A stretch of DNA of 64,000 nucleotides, taken from the NCBI RefSeq assembly GCF_003865035.1, contig NZ_BHVZ01000004.1, positions 62,001-126,000 of the forward strand. Direction: 5' to 3'. Below the pieces are notes generated by a model, which worked only from the letters and a program-made list of their open reading frames with translations, was not told the DNA's origin and made no database searches. This document shows positions 16,698 to 58,176 of this stretch, in pieces (position 1 is the first letter of the stretch; each line of letters opens with the position of its first letter). The position numbers and the translations under genes are program-made. This DNA is from Anaerotignum faecicola (GTDB lineage: Bacteria > Bacillota > Clostridia > Lachnospirales > Anaerotignaceae).

Positions 16698-16833
16698 TTT
16701 TTGTACAAAGGAATGCAGCTCCAAGACAATTTGCCCCGGAGCTGCCGGATGAAAAATCTTTTTTGAAAAAGCAACCTTGAAAATATTATTTTCAAAGTCT
16801 AAAGGAAACTGCCACAAAAAATTGTGCTTAGCA
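16698..16833. repeat. Direct repeat, copy A (about 136 bp)
   Basis: This is nearly the same sequence, in the same orientation, as 30539-30672. It contains a perfect GCAGCTCC/GGAGCTGC stem, an AT-rich palindrome (TTGAAAATA/TATTTTCAA) and ends at GTGCTTAGCA in both copies. The two copies bound a ~14-kb island. It may be the relic of an insertion-element end. Confidence 0.7.
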
Positions 16834-16890
16834 GCCAGAAAAAATTTCCTATATGAACGCTAAGAATGTTTTTTTATTACTCCAACTTTT

Positions 16891-29858: not shown

Positions 29859-30497
29859 TTATGATAGTTTTATTGGTTCTTTCCCCACACACTTTCTCCA
29901 CCCTATTTCTTCTTTTATCTCTCTCTTATATTTGTAATAGGAATTTCTACTAATTCCAAACAGTTTTATAACCTCCTTATCCTTCAGCATACCGTTAAAG
30001 GACGAGGAATACTTATATATTTCCCGTTTTTTCTGCTTTGTACTTTCGTATTCAATTTTTGTGCCGGCAGCTCGTCCTATCTGCTTACCATTCAAACGAG
30101 CCGTTTCGATTCCCTCAATGGTTCTTCTCCGCAAATCCTTAACTTCCTTCTCTGCCTGCTCAAAACATATTTTTATCTGCTCCTTCGCAAGAGCCAGCAT
30201 ATACTTGTTTACACCTTCCAGAATATAATCTACAGTAGTACCTGTCATTTCAATGCCGGACTCCATTGCCTTCTTGTAGACACTGGTATTGATATGCGGC
30301 TCTTTGAGAAATACCAAATCAATTCCCCTATGATATAATTCTTCATAGGCTGTGAATCCTTCTTCCGCATCCCTCGACATACGGCTGACAGAATCAAAAA
30401 CGATTCTGTCCCCTTGTCGGACGTTCTTAATCAGCTTCAGCCACTTTTCCCTTCCTTCCATCTTCGTTCCCATATTAATGCAACACTTGTATAGCAA
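29859..30497 (-). pseudogene. Serine resolvase/invertase, N-terminally truncated
   Basis: Homology starts abruptly at GTKMEGREKW, which in intact small resolvases follows about 45 residues carrying the catalytic Ser. Here the upstream codons are unrelated, and the only start is a TTG without a ribosome binding site. The rest is well kept: RIVFDSVSRMSRDAEEG with the catalytic Arg residues, the long E helix, and a C-terminal HTH (VIKLFGISRNSYYKYKR). Without the catalytic Ser it cannot recombine DNA. The break lies about 40 bases from direct repeat copy B. Confidence 0.75.
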
Positions 30498-30538
30498 AAA
30501 ATTCTAAAAATCGAATGGGTGAGCATAGGCCCTCCCAT

Positions 30539-30672
30539 TTTTTTATACAAAGGAATACAGCCCCAGAGCACTTTGCCCCGGAGCTGCTGGATGAAAAATT
30601 TTATGAAAAGTAACTTTGAAAATATTATTTTCAAAGTCTAAAGGAAACTGTCACAAAAAATTGTGCTTAGCA
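30539..30672. repeat. Direct repeat, copy B (about 134 bp)
   Basis: Same orientation as 16698-16833, about 88% identical by eye, with the same hairpin (one G-T pair) and the same AT palindrome. It directly abuts the broken 5' end of the resolvase. This suggests the recombination that created the island used this sequence. Confidence 0.7.
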
Positions 30673-30717
30673 CCCCTTAAGCTGTTGCTCCTTAAAAGCT
30701 ACTACGAGGAATACCTC

Positions 30718-31713
30718 TCATGTGTCATAACTATCTTGGTGGTATGTATCTCCGGCATTTTCAAATAACTTATCTACAATTTTCAAAAAAACATCTAATT
30801 CTGTCTTTGATACAGCTATATCGTTTCCTTCAGTATCAGACATATGTTGATATACTCTGTCATCTTTATAAATAGCAAAATCCTTGATTTCTTCGTTTGT
30901 AACCCAAACTATTCGATACATAAAATTTGCTGTTGGTCTTAATACATTCTTTCCTGGGGATTCAACAATCTCCCCTTGGTTTAATAAATCAGACAATTCA
31001 TCGAGCACCAAATTGATATCAGCTTCATTCGTTATATATATATAATCCGATCCTTGCTGAATACAGATGAAATCCGCATCAAAATTATAACTCTCACCTT
31101 CATAACCATCTCTCTCGGTTGTTTTTTTCAAAAAATTACTACCGATCTTTTGAATATCTTCTTGAATTATATTGACATTAATAATTTTTTCAGAATCATT
31201 CCATGTTATATCGATCCTTGGGAATTTTTCAAATACATAACCATTATTTATTGCCATTCCAACAACCTGATGGCTTACAATAATAGAACCCCATGCTTTA
31301 TTTGTTGCTTTTTCTATATCAGCTAGCTTAAAATAATATCTTCCGTTCAAAAGAAAATACTCGGCTTCACTGCTAGAATCATCATAAATGAGTCTGCCTT
31401 TTTCCACTTTGACTTTAGCGGTCTGTTGGGTTAATTCTTTCAGCGGCTCGTTGGACGTGGGTATATCATAAGGATCTACCACCACACCTTTATTATCATT
31501 CTGGATTGCATATACTGCCATATCTAAATGGTTCATAATGTCTCTTATCCTAACAAAGTTGTATCCATTAATGTTATAGCACTGGATTGTCTGTATCTCG
31601 CCATTATTAAAACGCACCTGAGCATTATTCAATGTTGCATTGCTTGTATCCGATGCAGCATATACCGTTGTAGAAAATAATACTATACATAAGAAATATA
31701 AGATTTTTTTCAC
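30718..31713 (-). CDS. Secreted protein with copper-amine-oxidase-N-like region
   Basis: 331 residues from GTG 31713. A signal peptide of about 19 residues ends at VYA-A. Residues 25-80 (NGYNFVRIRDIMNHLDMAV) and 115-150 (LNGRYYFKLADIE) resemble the stalk-type repeats found at the end of the 19499 adhesin. The C-terminal half contains no recognised domain. It may bind the cell wall. It lies downstream of the inverted protease gene on the same strand and could be an accessory or inhibitor of it; that is not proven. Confidence 0.65.
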   Translation of the reverse strand: MKKILYFLCIVLFSTTVYAASDTSNATLNNAQVRFNNGEIQTIQCYNINGYNFVRIRDIMNHLDMAVYAIQNDNKGVVVDPYDIPTSNEPLKELTQQTAKVKVEKGRLIYDDSSSEAEYFLLNGRYYFKLADIEKATNKAWGSIIVSHQVVGMAINNGYVFEKFPRIDITWNDSEKIINVNIIQEDIQKIGSNFLKKTTERDGYEGESYNFDADFICIQQGSDYIYITNEADINLVLDELSDLLNQGEIVESPGKNVLRPTANFMYRIVWVTNEEIKDFAIYKDDRVYQHMSDTEGNDIAVSKTELDVFLKIVDKLFENAGDTYHQDSYDT

Positions 31714-31794: not shown

Positions 31795-32013
31795 TTAAAA
31801 CTTAACAGTTACTAACGTAAGCATCTTATCTTTGTCATACAGAATATATCTCACGCCAGAATTCCATCCATCTGCAATCATAAAATAAACATTTGTTTTA
31901 TTTGTATGAACGTATTCTTCATACCCAAATGTGTATACATAATGTGCACCATACAAGCTGCCTTTATCCAACTGAATAATTTGGCAAATCTGATTTTTTA
32001 CATTACTAGACAC
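31795..32013 (-). CDS. C-terminal exon-like piece of the C39-like protease
   Basis: About 70 codons starting after an in-frame stop. The piece contains the catalytic His region GAHYVYTFGYEEY and the YFMIADGWNSGVRYI strand typical of papain-like C39/C10 peptidases. The only start is a GTG with no ribosome binding site, so it is probably not translated on its own in this orientation. Confidence 0.6.
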   Translation of the reverse strand: MSSNVKNQICQIIQLDKGSLYGAHYVYTFGYEEYVHTNKTNVYFMIADGWNSGVRYILYDKDKMLTLVTVKF

Positions 32014-32437
32014 TTCTGATTATTCTGATATGTGGAAGGCAATATATAAAGCCTATGAAAAGAAGGCAGTAGTGCCCGTGTTTATTAAAGATCCTTCTCC
32101 AATGGAAGATGGCTATAAGTCTTTAAATATTAGAAATATTGTTGATTCTACGTTTGCACCATATAAAACAATGAATGATTTCGTTGGAAACATTGGGGAT
32201 TGTGGACCGGTTGCAGCAACCAATCTTATGATCATGGCAAAGCATTCTTTCGGTGAGGATGTTTTATTAGATGGAACAATCAAGAATGTATACGATGAAT
32301 TATTTAAAACAACGGGATGTGATCCCAAGAATGGAACATACCCTAATTTTCTGTCTTCTGGTATTAATCAGTATCTTACAAGTATTAATAAAAAATATAC
32401 AGGTGCAACAAGAGAATTTCAGTTTGTGAGTGATGTA
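31999..32437. other. Invertible segment with inverted repeats
   Basis: The ends are TACATTACT (31999-32007) and AGTGATGTA (32429-32437), complementary at 8 of 9 positions. Beyond them there is weaker inward similarity (TGA and ATTCT blocks). The plus-strand frame through the segment encodes the protease core. Swapping it end-for-end restores the minus-strand reading frame at both joints, which would be very unlikely by chance. Confidence 0.7.
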
Positions 32438-32503
32438 GGAGTAAATGGTATGTCTGTACTATTGTTATACGTATCGATACTTACGCTTTGTACTTCTTCT
32501 TGA
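32030..32503 (+). CDS. Inverted catalytic core of the protease (not expected to be expressed)
   Basis: A plus-strand frame of 157 codons. Residues about 1-133 are the protease core, including NIGDCGPVAATNLMIM with the catalytic Cys. The last ~20 codons are antisense to the minus-strand N-terminal part and are meaningless. No ribosome binding site precedes the ATG at 32030. The coding quality shows that this is a misplaced gene part rather than a real plus-strand gene. Confidence 0.5.
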   Translation: MWKAIYKAYEKKAVVPVFIKDPSPMEDGYKSLNIRNIVDSTFAPYKTMNDFVGNIGDCGPVAATNLMIMAKHSFGEDVLLDGTIKNVYDELFKTTGCDPKNGTYPNFLSSGINQYLTSINKKYTGATREFQFVSDVGVNGMSVLLLYVSILTLCTSS

Positions 32504-32952
32504 GTATTTAAATTTTTTACTGTACCAGTACCTTCATTAACCGCAAAATAATCATACCCGCCGACATAGTAAATTTCTTCATTTGCTTCAGCAGAATCTA
32601 AAAAACCTTTTTCATCAGAAAAGCTGTATTCAATGACAGGTGCATATTCTTCTTGCGCACCAATAACAATATATCCATGATAAGTATCCTTCTCATCTTC
32701 AATATCAAATTTGTATGCAGAAGGAACACCTTCGGTCTCATATATTGTCTTACTTAAAATCAAATTATAGTCATTTGGCAATTTTTCAATTATATCTTCA
32801 TTTTCTTCTCTTGAAAGCAGAAAATCATATGCAATTGCCATTGCCAAATCTTCGCTTACTACTTTATCATTAGACCCACTTGCAAACGCAGTTGATGTTC
32901 CACCCAACAACATTACCATAGATAATGCTATAGCCATAATTTTTTCTTTCAT
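32419..32952 (-). CDS. Signal peptide and propeptide of the protease (truncated product)
   Basis: 177 residues as it stands. The signal peptide covers about 1-24 (ending TAFAS). A pro-region then follows with the VSEDLAMAIAYDFL helix and a Y-HGYIVIGAQEEYAPVIEYS strand pair, like the SpeB/C10-type inhibitory propeptide. It has a good GGGAGGA ribosome binding site. After residue about 172 the frame enters the inverted segment and stops at TSLTN. In the present orientation a secreted propeptide alone could be made. Confidence 0.7.
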   Translation of the reverse strand: MKEKIMAIALSMVMLLGGTSTAFASGSNDKVVSEDLAMAIAYDFLLSREENEDIIEKLPNDYNLILSKTIYETEGVPSAYKFDIEDEKDTYHGYIVIGAQEEYAPVIEYSFSDEKGFLDSAEANEEIYYVGGYDYFAVNEGTGTVKNLNTQEEVQSVSIDTYNNSTDIPFTPTSLTN

Positions 32953-33185
32953 ATATTTTCCTCCCTCGTATAGAATAAATTTATAGAAAACAATAGGAAT
33001 TTATTGTATACTATATCTATCAATCCTGATTGAAACAGATTTTGTGTTAGCCGCACGATTCTGCCTTTTCATTCAGGATTTTTTTATCACCTCCATTACC
33101 GATTTTTTCTTACCATTCATAGCACCGCCTCCTCTCATTTATGTAATTTATAAAAAGCACTCATATTTAATAAATGCTATTTACC

Positions 33186-34574
33186 TTAATGTGTACATTT
33201 TGCCATAGTAACAGTATTGATTACATCACCTTTCCAAACAGTTCCACAAGTGCTGCATTTCTGCCCTTCATAGTATGTTGTAACACAAGAACCATTACTT
33301 TTTTTCTTATGTTCCTTTAAAGTAATGTCCACAAGTTTATGGGCATGTCTGGGTTCAACCTGCGCCTGCACCTGTTCCGGCACATCAGCCACTTCCCCCT
33401 GATAAATAATTTCGTATGTAATATCATCTGTATTGCACAGTTCAAATTCCACCAGACTGTCTTTATTTATATGTGTGTGACTTTCAAATTCTCCTTCCAT
33501 CTGAATATCATCAGCAGCTACTTCTTCCAATTCGCCCGCTTTTACAAATTCAACATTCTTAGAAAACAGCATATTTACAGGAACATCCAATTCCTTCGCC
33601 GATGCATTGCCACAAAACATTGCCACCATCGCAATCGTTGCGACTGTCACCTTTCCCAATCTGCTGTTCATACTGCACTTTTTCATAATCTTTATCATCC
33701 TCCACTTATAATTCTTTATCTCCAATCCTACAAAGCCAATGCTGAAAAATGTTCCTTTGCTTCTAGCCTGTTCCAGCTCCAGCACCTTTATAATCAGCTC
33801 GCAATATTTTCGTTTTTGCCCCTTTGTATATTTTTTTGTTACATCTTCATCACAGGCAGCTTCTGTCCATTCTGAAAGATTTTTCATTAAAAGGTAATAC
33901 AACGGGTTGAACCAATTCAGGCAATTTAAGAACAACACCAATAACTTCCGCAATAAATCCCGATGCTTCACATGATAAAACTCATGCTCTAAGATAAAAC
34001 CAATTTCTTCTTCATCAAAGAAAGCTATCATATAAGCAGGAATCACAATGTATCTTTTCCTTATACCGATTGTACATGGTGTAGATATATTGCAGCACCC
34101 AATCAGGCTTATGTTTGATACCTGATTACTGTCTTTAATCTTACAGAATGTTTTATGCCATAAATCATCCTGTACATAGAACATAGACTTTTTTACGGCA
34201 TACAACAGGCTGGCATATTTCCATACATAATAAACGAAAAAGCCAATAACTCCGATCAACCAAATGGTTCCAAGGTATTCCATGTGTATTTGCTCTCGCA
34301 CATTATATATAAAGCCATCATATCTGCTTATATCTTGATGTATCAATAGATCTGACTGAATAAAAGCCTTTTCACTGCCATCCCTTAGCGATACAACAAA
34401 ATACAGCGGTGTTACAAATGAGAATAGAGCTATTGTATTTACATAGACCATTGTCCTTGCCGAAGTCCACTTATATGCAATCTTTTCAAATGGTAAAAAA
34501 ATCGCACAGAATACAAATCCGCTGATAGATAACAATAATGCAACAATAAACGCTCGCTCAATTATCAAATTCAT
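33186..34574 (-). CDS. M56 (BlaR1/MecR1-like) membrane metallopeptidase sensor
   Basis: 462 residues. Four hydrophobic helices lie near 5-27, 42-62, 103-125 and 310-325. The zinc motif HEFYH is at 197-201, followed by HRDLL. After the last helix the external domain is not a penicillin-binding domain. It is a short, acidic region ending in a Cys-rich tail (CVTTYYEGQKCSTCGTVW and a final MAKCTH) that could bind metal. In the family the peptidase cleaves the partner BlaI repressor upon signal. The gene overlaps the blaI-like gene by 17 bases. The signal is unlikely to be a beta-lactam, given the missing sensor domain. Confidence 0.85.
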   Translation of the reverse strand: MNLIIERAFIVALLLSISGFVFCAIFLPFEKIAYKWTSARTMVYVNTIALFSFVTPLYFVVSLRDGSEKAFIQSDLLIHQDISRYDGFIYNVREQIHMEYLGTIWLIGVIGFFVYYVWKYASLLYAVKKSMFYVQDDLWHKTFCKIKDSNQVSNISLIGCCNISTPCTIGIRKRYIVIPAYMIAFFDEEEIGFILEHEFYHVKHRDLLRKLLVLFLNCLNWFNPLYYLLMKNLSEWTEAACDEDVTKKYTKGQKRKYCELIIKVLELEQARSKGTFFSIGFVGLEIKNYKWRMIKIMKKCSMNSRLGKVTVATIAMVAMFCGNASAKELDVPVNMLFSKNVEFVKAGELEEVAADDIQMEGEFESHTHINKDSLVEFELCNTDDITYEIIYQGEVADVPEQVQAQVEPRHAHKLVDITLKEHKKKSNGSCVTTYYEGQKCSTCGTVWKGDVINTVTMAKCTH

Positions 34575-34938
34575 CTAACCACGCCTTCAAATCATTCATA
34601 TCCTTCTTACTGATTTTGTCACTACCTCGGAAAGCAACCAGAAAATTTTTTAAGGAGCCGCCGAATTTGCTTTCTACAAAACCTTCTGCTTCCTTTGTTT
34701 CATATTGTTCTTTGCTTACCAGCGGAAAATAACAAAGCTTGTTCCCCTTTTTGGTTACTCCCAAGATACCCTTCGCTTCCAAACGTCTCAGGAATGTTGC
34801 TACGGTAGGGTATGTCCATTCTTCGCCTTCTTCGTTTAAAATTGCCAGCATTTCCGGCACTGTAATCATTGCTCCTGTTTTCCAGATATGATTCATTACC
34901 TTCATCTCTGCATTAGAAATACTCATATTTTCATCCAT
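34558..34938 (-). CDS. BlaI/MecI/CopY-family transcriptional repressor
   Basis: 126 residues. The winged helix covers about 5-80 (AEMKVMNHIWKTGAMITVPE, then WTYPTVATFLRRLEAKGIL and KKGNKLCYFPLV). The C-terminal helical dimerisation part holds the site at which the M56 partner would cut. It starts at ATG 34938, nine bases after AGGAGG. Two matching operator dyads overlap its own promoter, so the pair is autoregulated. The downstream secreted protease and stalk protein on the same strand might also be under its control. Confidence 0.9.
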   Translation of the reverse strand: MDENMSISNAEMKVMNHIWKTGAMITVPEMLAILNEEGEEWTYPTVATFLRRLEAKGILGVTKKGNKLCYFPLVSKEQYETKEAEGFVESKFGGSLKNFLVAFRGSDKISKKDMNDLKAWLDEFDN

Positions 34939-53378: not shown

Positions 53379-54998
53379 TTAATATTCCGGAAGCATCTTC
53401 TCAACTATAATTCCAGATTTGAATACTACCTCTATCTTTCTTGCATTCACCACGTTGATATTCTGAATCAGCTGCCGCACCAATTTATCGTCATATTCTG
53501 TCAGTACGCAGTTTGTTTTGTCCAGAAAACGCCCGATATCTTCCATCTCTCTGCTTTTCTCGCCTCTGCTAGCTGCTTTGATCTGCTTTATTTCCAGTGC
53601 TTCTATCTGTGCTGTGATCGCCTGACAGCATTCCTCAAATGCGGTTTTATCGCCGTTCTGCTTGGCTTGCTGCTGTATCAGTTCCGCCATAGCTTTCTGC
53701 AAGTTTTTCTTTTCTTCAGCATATTCGGAATCCTCTGTGTCATGCGTCAAGGCTGTGACTACATTTTTTCTGAATGTCTGGACGAAGTCACCTTTGTTTT
53801 CAAGAACCTGATTGATAGCATGTAATACTGCTCTATGTAATACATTTTCCTCTATAGTCGGGGATTCCTTGCAGTATCTTGTCCCATTTCTCAGCCTGTT
53901 TTCGCATCTCCACACCGCTTTCTTTTCCCCATACTTAGACCAGATTTGTCTGCGGTACTCACATCCGCACTCTTTGCAAATGGTAATTTTCGACAAAGCG
54001 TATTTTCCACTATGCTTGCCCTTTGATTCTGTTTTCAGTTTACTGGACTTCTTATATATATTGGCTCGCTGATGCAGTTTTTCCTGCACTTTATAGAATA
54101 CTTCCCTTGGAATAATTGCTTCATAGGTATTTTCCACATAATATTTTTGAAGTTCCCCTTGATTCTCTTTTCGTGTTTTGGTCAAATAATCTATTGTGAA
54201 AGTTTTTTGTGCCATGGCGTCACCGATATACTTTTCATTAATCAGGATTGTACGGATTGAATTCACATTCCATTCTGTATTGCCCCTTATGGTTTTAATA
54301 CCCTTTTCTTTCAGTATGCGAGCGATACTGTTCAGGCTTTCCCCCTCCAGATATTTTCCGTAAATCAATCGTACCACTTCTGCTTCTTCTGGAATGATAT
54401 ACAGCTGTCCATCTGTGCTTTTGCCATATCCAAACATTCTTCTGACCAGCATCTCTCCTTTTTCATATTTTCGTTTTAAGCCCCATTTCACATTTTCGCT
54501 GATATTTCGACTTTCTTCCTGTGCCTGACTGCTGAGTATGGTGATCAGAAGTTCTCCTGTGGATTCCAGTGTGTTGATATGCTCTTTCTCGAAGTAGATA
54601 GCGATATTTCGTTCTTTCAGCTTTCGGATACAGGACAGACAGTCAACTGTATTTCTGGCAAATCGGCTAATGGATTTTGTCAGAATCAGGTCGATATCTC
54701 CATCTTTTTGCAAGCATCTTTCCATCATGGCATTGAAGTTGTCCCTTTTTTTCATATCCGTTCCTGAGATGCCGTCATCCGCATAAATACCTGCTAACTG
54801 CCAACTGGGGTTTTCTGTAATCAGCTTAGTGAAATATGCCACCTGCGCTTCATAACTGGTTTCCTAGTCCTCCTGTGCGGTACTGACTCTGCAATAGGCG
54901 GCAACATTGATTTTTTTTACTTTCTTTTTCTTTTCTGTATTCATATTAGCTTTGGGCGGAATTATTTTGATTTTTCGATCAGTCGCTGTGCTATTCAT
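53379..54998 (-). pseudogene. Large serine recombinase interrupted by an amber codon
   Basis: A complete 539-codon gene can be read from ATG 54998, except that codon 45 is TAG (54864-54866). The text around it, CRVSTAQED-stop-ETSYEAQV, shows Gln (CAG) as the likely original. The catalytic Ser is in YCRVST. The rest carries the resolvase core (LTKSISRFARNTVD), recombinase domain, zinc ribbon (CKECGCEYRRQIW) and coiled coil. The downstream frame could start at a GTG at 54842 but would lack the Ser. It would be the integrase of an integrative element. Confidence 0.8.
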
Positions 54999-55052
54999 AA
55001 TATACTTCCTTTCTTTTTATGCTATTTTTTCTTCCATACTCTTTACACCGTT

Positions 55053-55919
55053 TTATGGCAGCATTTCTGTTACATTCACTCCGTTTTTCAGTGTGAACAT
55101 CACTCTGCCATCTTTGTATATGGTAATTGTTTGGGTTATAAATTCGAATAAGTCTTTGTCGAATGTTTTTTCTTCTGTCTGCTCTTTATGCTGCTGAAGC
55201 AAGTCTAAAATTTTATTTGTATAGTATTCTGCTCCGCCATCATCGGAGTCTTCATACTGTAACGATGCTCTTTTATATATCAGCTCCAGCAATTCGTCTA
55301 TGTTATGACTGCTGTCGTTTTTCAGAAGCTCTATTTCATGCTCTACTGCCTGTAAACGGATATTTCTTTTGAATTTATGTATCGTAATTTTTCTAATCTT
55401 TTCCGGATGGTTTTTCATTTTAGTTACTGCCTGCATAAATAATTCTTTGATTTGGGCTTCCTGTATATGCTGATTTCTGCAGTGTACCCTGCCTTTTACA
55501 ATTCGTTTACTGCAATCCCATATCTGTTTATCTCCATGCTTGTAGCAGTGATATTCACTGCCACATTCTCCGCATTTCATTTTATCACCCAGAAGGAAGT
55601 ATTCTTTATAATAGATATAGGACTGTTCCTTGCCTATTGCTTTGCGTCTTTCCTTTTTCATTTGCTGTACCGCTTCAAATAATTCCGGTTCTATAATCTT
55701 TGGGAAGTTCTCATCCCCCATATACCTTTTGTCGCTGAGCATATCATTGAGCTTTACTCGATTGATTTCCAGTCCCTCAATATGGGCTTTTAGCCTTGAT
55801 ACTGAAATGCCGCTGTTATATACATTGAATATCTCCTGCACAAATCTACTTTGTTCCTTATCTGCCTGCAATATGCCATTTTTAAATTGATAGCCGTATA
55901 CTGTTACTTTTCTTCCCAT
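55053..55919 (-). CDS. Recombinase-family protein lacking the catalytic domain
   Basis: 288 residues with a good AAGGAA ribosome binding site. It contains only the recombinase domain, zinc ribbon (KCGECGSEYHCYKHGDKQIWDC) and C-terminal part (FITQTITIYKDGRVMF). No resolvase catalytic domain precedes it. Trios of two full recombinases and one such short protein occur in some clostridial integrative elements, where the short one may help DNA binding. It lies 3 bases from the previous recombinase's end. Confidence 0.75.
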   Translation of the reverse strand: MGRKVTVYGYQFKNGILQADKEQSRFVQEIFNVYNSGISVSRLKAHIEGLEINRVKLNDMLSDKRYMGDENFPKIIEPELFEAVQQMKKERRKAIGKEQSYIYYKEYFLLGDKMKCGECGSEYHCYKHGDKQIWDCSKRIVKGRVHCRNQHIQEAQIKELFMQAVTKMKNHPEKIRKITIHKFKRNIRLQAVEHEIELLKNDSSHNIDELLELIYKRASLQYEDSDDGGAEYYTNKILDLLQQHKEQTEEKTFDKDLFEFITQTITIYKDGRVMFTLKNGVNVTEMLP

Positions 55920-55921
55920 AT

Positions 55922-57487
55922 TTATTTCCTTCTTTCTGTTAGCTTTAATCCGTTTGTCAGTTCAAATACTAACTCGTTGGGATTTACAATAATCTTTTTT
56001 ACGATTGCTTGGAATAATGTCTTGTCATATACTTCCAGATATTGCGGTCCTTTTTTGAACTGCTTAATCAGTTCCTTTGTCTGTATCAATTCTTTTCTCT
56101 GTCTAGATTTCTGAAGATATTGCTCCTTTGCTCTCTGATACTCTTTTAGGTTTTTGCTGATCATATTTTGCTGTTCCATATAAAAAGCAGAGTCGATCAT
56201 CTCTCCACTTGCCAAGTGGTTGAGAATCTCTCTCTGCTTTTTCTGTTCTTGTATTCGTTTGTCTAATTGTTCCAACTGCTTCTGTATCATGGGTGTTGCA
56301 TTTAGCTGCTCCAGCTCGTTCACCAATGGTACCAGTATATCATCACAGTGGCTTGAAAGTTTGTTCCACATGATGATAAAGGCTTGTTCTAACTGACTTT
56401 CTTTTATTATGTCATTCTCACAAAGTTCTTTTGTCTGTATGCGTCTGGCACAGCTCCAAGTAATATTGATCTTACCTGTTCTTTCTTTTCTCTCCCGACG
56501 ATTGTATGAGGAACCGCAGATGCCACAGATAACTTTTCCTTTAAACTCTGAAGGTTCTTCCGACTGTTCTTCTTTGCCGGTTTTTTTACTTTTGCCTTTT
56601 GTTTCAGCATTCGCTGAACGGCTTCATACTCCTCATGGGTTACGATTGGTTCATGATCATTCTCAATAAGCACCTGACGATATTCCCCATTATTTTTTCT
56701 TCTTACGAATGGTACAATGTCCTCACTGTATGTTTTCTGAAGAAGCAAGTCACCTGTGTTGATGTTGTTTTTCAGAATGATATAAATGGCTCCGCCTAAC
56801 CATGCCGCCTTTCCTGTTTTTGTTGGTATCCTCTGTTCGTTCAGGCTTTTGGCAATCCGCCATATTCCATTCCCCTCCAGATATTCGTCGAATATAAATC
56901 TCACGACAGCTGCTTGCTTCTGGTTCAGCTCAAGCAATCCGTTTGTATTTGTACAGTAGCCATATGCCGGATTAGGCAATATGTATGTACCATTCATAAA
57001 TCTTTTTTGTATGCTCCATTTCTGGTTTGATGAAATGCTTTCCGATTCCGCCTGTGCCACAGAGGAATAAATGGATATCAGAAATTCACTTTTTTTCAGA
57101 AAGTGTATGAATATTTTCTTTTTCGAAATACACATCTATTTACTTTTTCTTAAGCTCTCTGACAATCTTAATGCATTCTACTGTGTTTCTGGCAAATCTG
57201 CTGATTGATTTGGTACAGATAATATCAATCTCCCCTGCTTCACAGTCTTCCAACATACGCATAAAATCCGTTCTGCCTTTTTTCTTTGTACCGCTTTTGA
57301 CGTAGTCGGCATATATTCCTATGAAGCTCCAGCCTACCTTGCTTCGGATCATATTTTCGTAATACTCAAGCTGAGATTCATAAGAGCCTTTCTGGTGAGG
57401 AATATTTGTGCTGACTCTGCAGTAAGCACAAACATTTTTCATCATCGGTTCTTCATTTATGTCTGTTGTTTTTGCTGTATCATTCAT
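55922..57487 (-). pseudogene. Large serine recombinase with one stop and two frameshifts
   Basis: It starts at ATG 57487, behind AAGGAGG. The catalytic Ser (YCRVST) and LTKSISRFARNTVE-like core are in the first frame, which hits TAA at 57140-57142. The same frame would continue IDVYFEKENIHT. A run of seven A residues (57090-57096) then shifts the frame to SEFLISIYSSVAQAESESIS. A second A7 run (56581-56587) shifts it again to EFKGKVICGICGSSYN and on to the end at 55922. Each join restores the recombinase family text, so it was once one gene of about 520 codons. Confidence 0.75.
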
Positions 57488-57504
57488 GTTTATGCCTCCT
57501 TTTT

Positions 57505-57708
57505 TCAAGCAAAGGATACCTGCTTTTCAGTGACACATCTACTATTTTTTTCATAAAGTTTGGCTTCTGCCGGCTGGAAGGTTTGCAAGTTCAAACTGTT
57601 CATCTGATTATATTCTTCTTCTGTGATCAGATTTCGAAAGAGCATTCTTGTCAATAACTCCTTGGAAAGCTGGTATCTGATTTCATTTTGCATCTGATCT
57701 TTTGACAT
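57505..57708 (-). CDS. Small SHOCT-like protein ahead of recombinases
   Basis: 67 residues. The N-terminal ~40 residues (EIRYQLSKELLTRMLFRNLITEEEYNQM) have the short SHOCT-like helix pair frequently encoded directly before the recombinases of clostridial elements. It overlaps the recombinase region and shares its promoter. It may act as a recombination directionality helper, which is inferred only from position. Confidence 0.6.
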   Translation of the reverse strand: MSKDQMQNEIRYQLSKELLTRMLFRNLITEEEYNQMNSLNLQTFQPAEAKLYEKNSRCVTEKQVSFA

Positions 57709-57818: not shown

Positions 57819-58176
57819 TATTCTGACTTAAATTTGCCGTATTTGACACTACTTCCCGGACATTAGGCAGCAATATAAACTGTGCTTGGCTGCACACATA
57901 GGCTTTTCACCTCCCCCGTCATGCGGGCTGCCGTCCTTGCGATGTCTGGGACTCGGCAGAAGTATCATTGTGGCTCTGCTTCGGTCGTGGCATTTGATCT
58001 TGCCAAAAGATCAATCCCATACAGCAAAATCGCTCGAATTATGTATTACAGACAAACGAACCACCCTCAAAAATATGTTTATTTCACGTTCTGTTGTAAC
58101 GAATCGTCATGGCGCACTGCATGGTACTGCTTGTCCCTTTCGGGCAAAACAGAGTAACGTATTTATATTGCTGGGT

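Follow-up and report, generated by a model that had tools for sequence, protein, structure and literature searches.

A Putative Secreted Cysteine-Peptidase-Like Gene Disrupted by a Small Balanced Inversion in Anaerotignum faecicola

Introduction

In a 64,000-nucleotide stretch of the Anaerotignum faecicola genome (contig NZ_BHVZ01000004.1, positions 62,001 to 126,000; hereafter, the window, to whose positions all coordinates refer), the gene at 31795-32952 on the minus strand has its middle part on the opposite strand, according to both the ORF listing and homologue mapping. Does this arrangement reflect a reversible switch, or did an accident break the gene? Intragenic invertons, in which DNA inversion occurs wholly within a bacterial gene and yields intact and broken orientations, were reportedly described by Chanin et al. 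in Nature in 2024. In the part of PMC11892184 that describes such elements, invertons are said to have inverted repeats of 10-40 nt, and PhaseFinderDC is presented as a repeat-based inverton scan. An earlier note on the window, made from the DNA letters, proposed that the gene is a candidate phase switch which turns between positions 31999 and 32437.

Results

An Intact Homologue Matches the Gene in Three Pieces

The core piece, padded with X on both sides to suit length limits, was used as a query and returned 10 proteins out of 146 candidates. The best of them, P0002, is a protein of 385 amino acids representing a cluster with 491 members; across the core, it shares 99% identity with the query. 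In a six-frame mapping, P0002 aligned with the window in three ordered pieces lying on the minus, plus, and minus strands (Table 1; the last piece, residues 316-385, occupies 32007-31798), a match far above chance. Five more full-length proteins (P0003, P0004, P0006, P0007, and P0008), 67-81% identical to P0002, matched the same three pieces. Since P0002 and all five of these homologues map in this way, the window copy is inverted relative to its family. The footprint of the gene amounts to 386 codons including the stop, the same as in P0002, with no net length change. Thus, the copy in the window is disrupted by a balanced inversion of ~444 bp, and the intact form of the gene is seen in the protein database. 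The central proposal of the earlier note, an inversion inside the gene that separates a signal-peptide-like N-terminal ORF and a His/Asp/Asn C-terminal piece (both on the minus strand) from a Cys core on the plus strand, is borne out by the ORFs and by the order of the P0002 pieces. An intact homologue of 385 residues had been set as a test beforehand, and P0002 has exactly this length.

Profile scans revealed no relatives in genome contigs (one of these scans used poor patterns, its alignment containing fragments) and none in viral contigs. Among plasmids or phages, no close match was found either to the DNA at 27000-51900 or to the P0002 protein.

Table 1. Coordinates of the disrupted gene, its joints, and related features in the window.
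Feature	Position	Strand	Basis
N-terminal piece, signal-peptide-like start and propeptide-like region	32452-32952	-	P0002 residues 1-167, tblastn 100% identity; ORF
Inverted core with conserved CGP motif	32009-32452	+	P0002 residues 167-314, tblastn 99.3% identity; ORF 32030-32503
C-terminal piece, invariant His/Asp/Asn	31795-32007	-	P0002 residues 316-385 and stop, tblastn 100% identity; invariant columns
Leftover ORF in present orientation, 177 aa	32419-32952	-	Stops 10 residues past the part shared with P0002
C-side joint, AGACA, first arm of the 5-bp inverted match	32008-32012	+	Letters, exact-match listing
N-side joint, TGTCT, second arm of the 5-bp inverted match	32451-32455	+	Letters, exact-match listing
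Earlier proposed left repeat, not a breakpoint, chance-level	31999-32007	+	Homologue mapping, repeat frequency
Earlier proposed right repeat, not a breakpoint, chance-level	32429-32437	+	Homologue mapping, repeat frequency
Stretch inverted in public allele P0018, approximate	32667-32927		tblastn; few shared bases at ends
Nearest serine-recombinase gene found, N-terminal part of domain absent	29859-30497	-	Resolvase-domain profile 44-106 of 145

The Encoded Protein

Four residues, C231 (within C231-G-P), H337, D361, and N364, are invariant in 6/6 full-length sequences. The homologues share a layout in which a signal-peptide-like start and a propeptide-like region are followed by the CGP motif and, later, by His and Asp/Asn. 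The same order of elements is found in secreted papain-fold peptidases with a propeptide (C39-like or C10-like). In papain-fold peptidases, a Gln is expected about six residues before the Cys; unlike them, the present protein lacks this Gln, and it has no convincing match to a family model or to a PDB sequence. Searches of Pfam and NCBIfam, in which the pieces were used separately, gave no convincing match, and no convincing relative of the core was found among PDB sequences. A fold model had a mean pLDDT of 35.9, which is too poor for use. Of the earlier reading of the gene as a cysteine protease, the conserved Cys/His/Asp/Asn motifs therefore hold up while a Pfam, NCBIfam, or PDB-sequence match to go with them does not appear. 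Judged by motif only, the protein is probably a putative papain-fold cysteine-peptidase-like enzyme.

Joints of the Inversion

Alignment with P0002 places the joints at 32008-32012 and 32451-32455, and not at 31999/32437 as had been proposed: the left joint lies 9 bp further in and the right one 14-18 bp further out. The proposed breakpoints nevertheless gave in-frame joints because the errors of the two positions add up to a multiple of three. Similarly, the 386 codons that were expected upon rejoining do equal the footprint of the gene and the length of P0002 with its stop, but no inversion alters the footprint length. The repeat TACATTACT/AGTGATGTA was rejected as a breakpoint on the basis of homology and of the frequency of equally good repeats. 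Within the gene, there are 189 inverted 9-mer pairs that match at 8/9 positions or better, including 61 with a spacing of 300-600 bp, as compared to means of 137.1 and 43.3, respectively, for 21 other stretches of the window.

At the true joints, the exact inverted match is limited to 5 bp, AGACA/TGTCT. Since 1.2% of random position pairs within the gene reach a match of this length, the repeat appears unimpressive, and it would partly be a product of the event itself if P0002 represents the parental state. Residue 167 of P0002 is encoded on both pieces, while residue 315 has no counterpart in the window; therefore, a few N-side bases are present at both joints, and one C-side residue's worth is lost. 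Derivation by hand gives 3-5 converted bases. This pattern, in which the letters of one end stand at both joints, assumes a parent like P0002, whose DNA is deduced from the protein. Such a parent is likely at the joints, because just one other mapped residue differs. Flipping the window form does not precisely yield P0002 at one joint (residue 315), but the actual parent may have differed from P0002. Had the 5 bp already stood at both ends in the parent, the flip would be exact, and this argument against a recombinase would fall away.

A Second Inversion and Other Public Alleles

A search for alleles with the 177-aa ORF as a query returned 15 proteins out of 137 candidates. One of them, P0018 (117 aa; a single-member cluster, from two contigs and two sources), matched the window by tblastn on the plus strand at 32633-32671, then on the minus strand at 32931-32662, and then again on the plus strand at 32924-32983. 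P0018 is thus another inversion in the same gene, ~256 bp long, with other ends and without net length change. Its ends have a short imperfect inverted match at most, with longest exact runs of 1-4 (ten axes were tried). As derived by hand, the letters of one end are again present at both joints, with 1-6 bases converted.

The remaining proteins are of several kinds. P0016, P0020, P0021, P0019, and P0023 were read by eye as small frameshifting changes or deletions. P0012 (179 aa, 61 members) stops at residue 179 and may be a nonsense allele or the result of contig ends. The 177-aa ORF of the window may be hidden within the P0012 cluster, and copies of the window inversion elsewhere therefore cannot be counted. 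P0013, P0014, P0017, P0010, and P0022 are fused to other sequence; in P0010 and P0022, the fusion partner is 30440-30532 (near 30526, upstream of the recombinase gene), joined to the protease gene at a different point in each, and may represent either the edge of a mobile element or an assembly chimera. Contig ends or chimeras may account for some of the non-inversion variants. P0009, P0011, and P0015, 82-85% identical, belong to a sister lineage. Altogether, shortened or otherwise changed versions of what is practically this protease gene make up 12 of the 15 proteins.

A control query, made of residues 1-177 of the product of the neighbouring gene 30718-31713, gave 11 proteins out of 74 candidates. 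Six of the 11 (P0024, P0025, P0026, P0028, P0030, and P0031) are shortened or otherwise changed versions of what is practically the neighbour gene, and no inversions are present among these six; in P0031, the neighbour gene is fused to 30346-30248, again with a mobile-element edge or an assembly chimera as possible reasons. Both searches took proteins of ~97-310 aa only and are thus biased towards short forms by design; some of the forms counted may merely reflect contig ends or other start sites (P0012 and P0014 for the protease gene, P0025 and P0026 for the neighbour), and the source of P0025 carries the mark "-", which is used for proteins encoded by the window. Recurrent loss of the protease gene under selection was considered and set aside, as 12/15 versus 6/11 is an approximately two-fold excess and too weak. 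A single inversion among 12 forms, to which the window adds another, versus none in six is suggestive and not significant. At the same time, two different inversions in one gene go beyond what would be expected of a rare accident, which hints that something local favours inversion.

Recombinase Genes

Relatives of the nearest serine-recombinase gene found (Table 1), at ~58% identity, occur in three phage records that derive from human faeces. Together with the gene content of the window, they suggest that the host is probably a gut bacterium of the Clostridia type. The start motif of the resolvase domain has three matches in the window, at 54896, 57424, and 32506; the former two lie in a recombinase cluster, the last one is located inside the protease-like gene, in a reading frame that contains several stops, and none of the three belongs to recombinase gene 29859-30497. 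Other recombinase genes or gene pieces are present at 53379-57508, ~20 kb or more away. The scan covered part of the window ORFs, and an enzyme could also be encoded elsewhere.

Discussion

The inversion is quite likely a one-off event in which ~444 bp, bounded by 32008-32012 and 32451-32455, were turned around during replication or break repair within a secreted, probably papain-fold cysteine-peptidase-like gene, giving rise to a pseudogene allele. According to this scenario, a balanced inversion would have arisen in one lineage, either by template switching between nearby strands in replication or by the repair of a break, and presumably not by a programmed switch. The product of the resulting allele would be limited to the signal peptide and the propeptide-like part, followed by a short foreign tail; in the earlier note, this leftover propeptide was put forward as a candidate inhibitor.

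The relevant sections of PMC8755829 discuss short inversions with tiny repeats as outcomes of template switching or of microhomology-mediated break-induced replication, and state that template switching converts imperfect inverted repeats into perfect ones. The same sections see problems for the template-switch model in this conversion and in repeats of just 3-4 nt, and prefer break-induced replication; either route may apply in the present case. The window joints would fit the imperfect-to-perfect pattern described there for template switching. Like the microinversions in those sections, the window allele has a clean inverted segment, whose ends match in inverted orientation over a few bases (3-75 nt there): AGACA/TGTCT exceeds the edge match of at least 3 nt by which microinversions are recognised, although relative to P0002 it is partly a product of the event, and the inverted copy is clean and of unchanged length, with one P0002 residue unmatched at a joint. 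Unlike them, it spans ~444 bp in a bacterium, as opposed to 17-33 bp in human and chimpanzee genomes. Searches of one open-access literature library for short inversions in bacteria returned no bacterial case.

A reversible intragenic inverton, in which the core would be turned by a site-specific recombinase so as to switch a secreted protein on and off, is an improbable alternative. It would account for a balanced inversion without net length change and for the occurrence of both intact and inverted forms in nature, and the window does contain serine recombinase genes or gene pieces at 53379-57508. Intragenic invertons likewise are contained in one bacterial gene and exist as intact and broken forms. 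Unlike them, the present locus shows no evidence of reversal and lacks repeats of 10-40 nt at the ends of the inverted segment, the inverted match there being just 5 bp; an exact flip of the segment would not restore the nearest intact homologue, which is known only as a protein. The P0018 inversion ends elsewhere, at breakpoints just as poor in repeats, and hence no invertible segment of fixed extent exists. In addition, the nearest recombinase gene is without the N-terminal part of its domain, and a second copy of the inverted ORF was not recognised among the 15 proteins, where it could hide inside a 90% cluster. The phase switch of the earlier note is thus disfavoured: the repeat at the true joints is short, the joints appear imprecise relative to P0002, and the nearest recombinase found is incomplete. 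Type II topoisomerases cut with a stagger of four bases, serine recombinases with one of two, and tyrosine recombinases with one of six to eight. Inversion by exchange at non-matching staggered cuts, as in illegitimate recombination by a type II topoisomerase, leaves one daughter strand with the same overhang at both joints; the window and P0018 both carry the letters of one end at both joints without net length change, and the 3-5 converted bases of the window suit a four-base stagger better than the others. Yet this argument rests on two events and on a parental state deduced from protein, and template switching yields the identical pattern; a search of one open-access library for inversions made by gyrase led to a paper on plastid genomes and to no bacterial case. 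We regard such an enzymatic exchange as no less doubtful than the inverton. Template switching, break repair, and staggered-cut exchange are not separated by the present data.

An assembly or amplification artefact is still more improbable. Public variants P0010, P0013, P0014, and P0022 do resemble possible assembly chimeras, but in the window both joints are present and balanced. Assemblers need overlaps of more than 5 bp, so the 5-bp overlap is too short for them, and amplification chimeras typically have one joint. Finally, the two independent repeat-less inversions, together with the mark of staggered cuts, could point to a hot spot, at which segments may be flipped by a recombination activity independent of inverted repeats. 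We give this idea a small chance; if true, it would mean that these bacteria harbour a recombination activity invisible to repeat-based inverton finders.

With accidental inversion as the preferred explanation, the locus provides a well-resolved case of a bacterial gene disrupted by a small balanced inversion. It also calls for caution: a plausible repeat combined with an in-frame reading is insufficient to call an inverton, as the homologue shifts the breakpoints to places without a repeat. If the P0018 and window inversions share a cause, repeat-less inversions would cause gene losses that escape repeat-based inverton scans.

Surroundings of the Disrupted Gene

Directly upstream of the broken gene, at 33186-34938, lie genes for a BlaR1-type M56 peptidase and a penicillinase-repressor-type regulator, a pair that possibly regulates it. 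On the other side, the neighbour gene 30718-31713 codes for a secreted protein of 331 aa, which has no Pfam or NCBIfam match and is represented by several shorter or altered public forms. A dispersed repeat of ~139 bp, small and mobile-element-like, is present at 16698-16836 and 30540-30675; the two copies are 88% identical and have a palindromic centre, ctttgaaaatattattttcaaag, and the latter copy adjoins the truncated recombinase gene. The large serine recombinase cluster at 53379-57508 looks interrupted, with start motifs located in separate ORFs or past a stop codon. At 57896-57971 on the minus strand, a pemK RNA is the sole Rfam match of the window at the gathering score.
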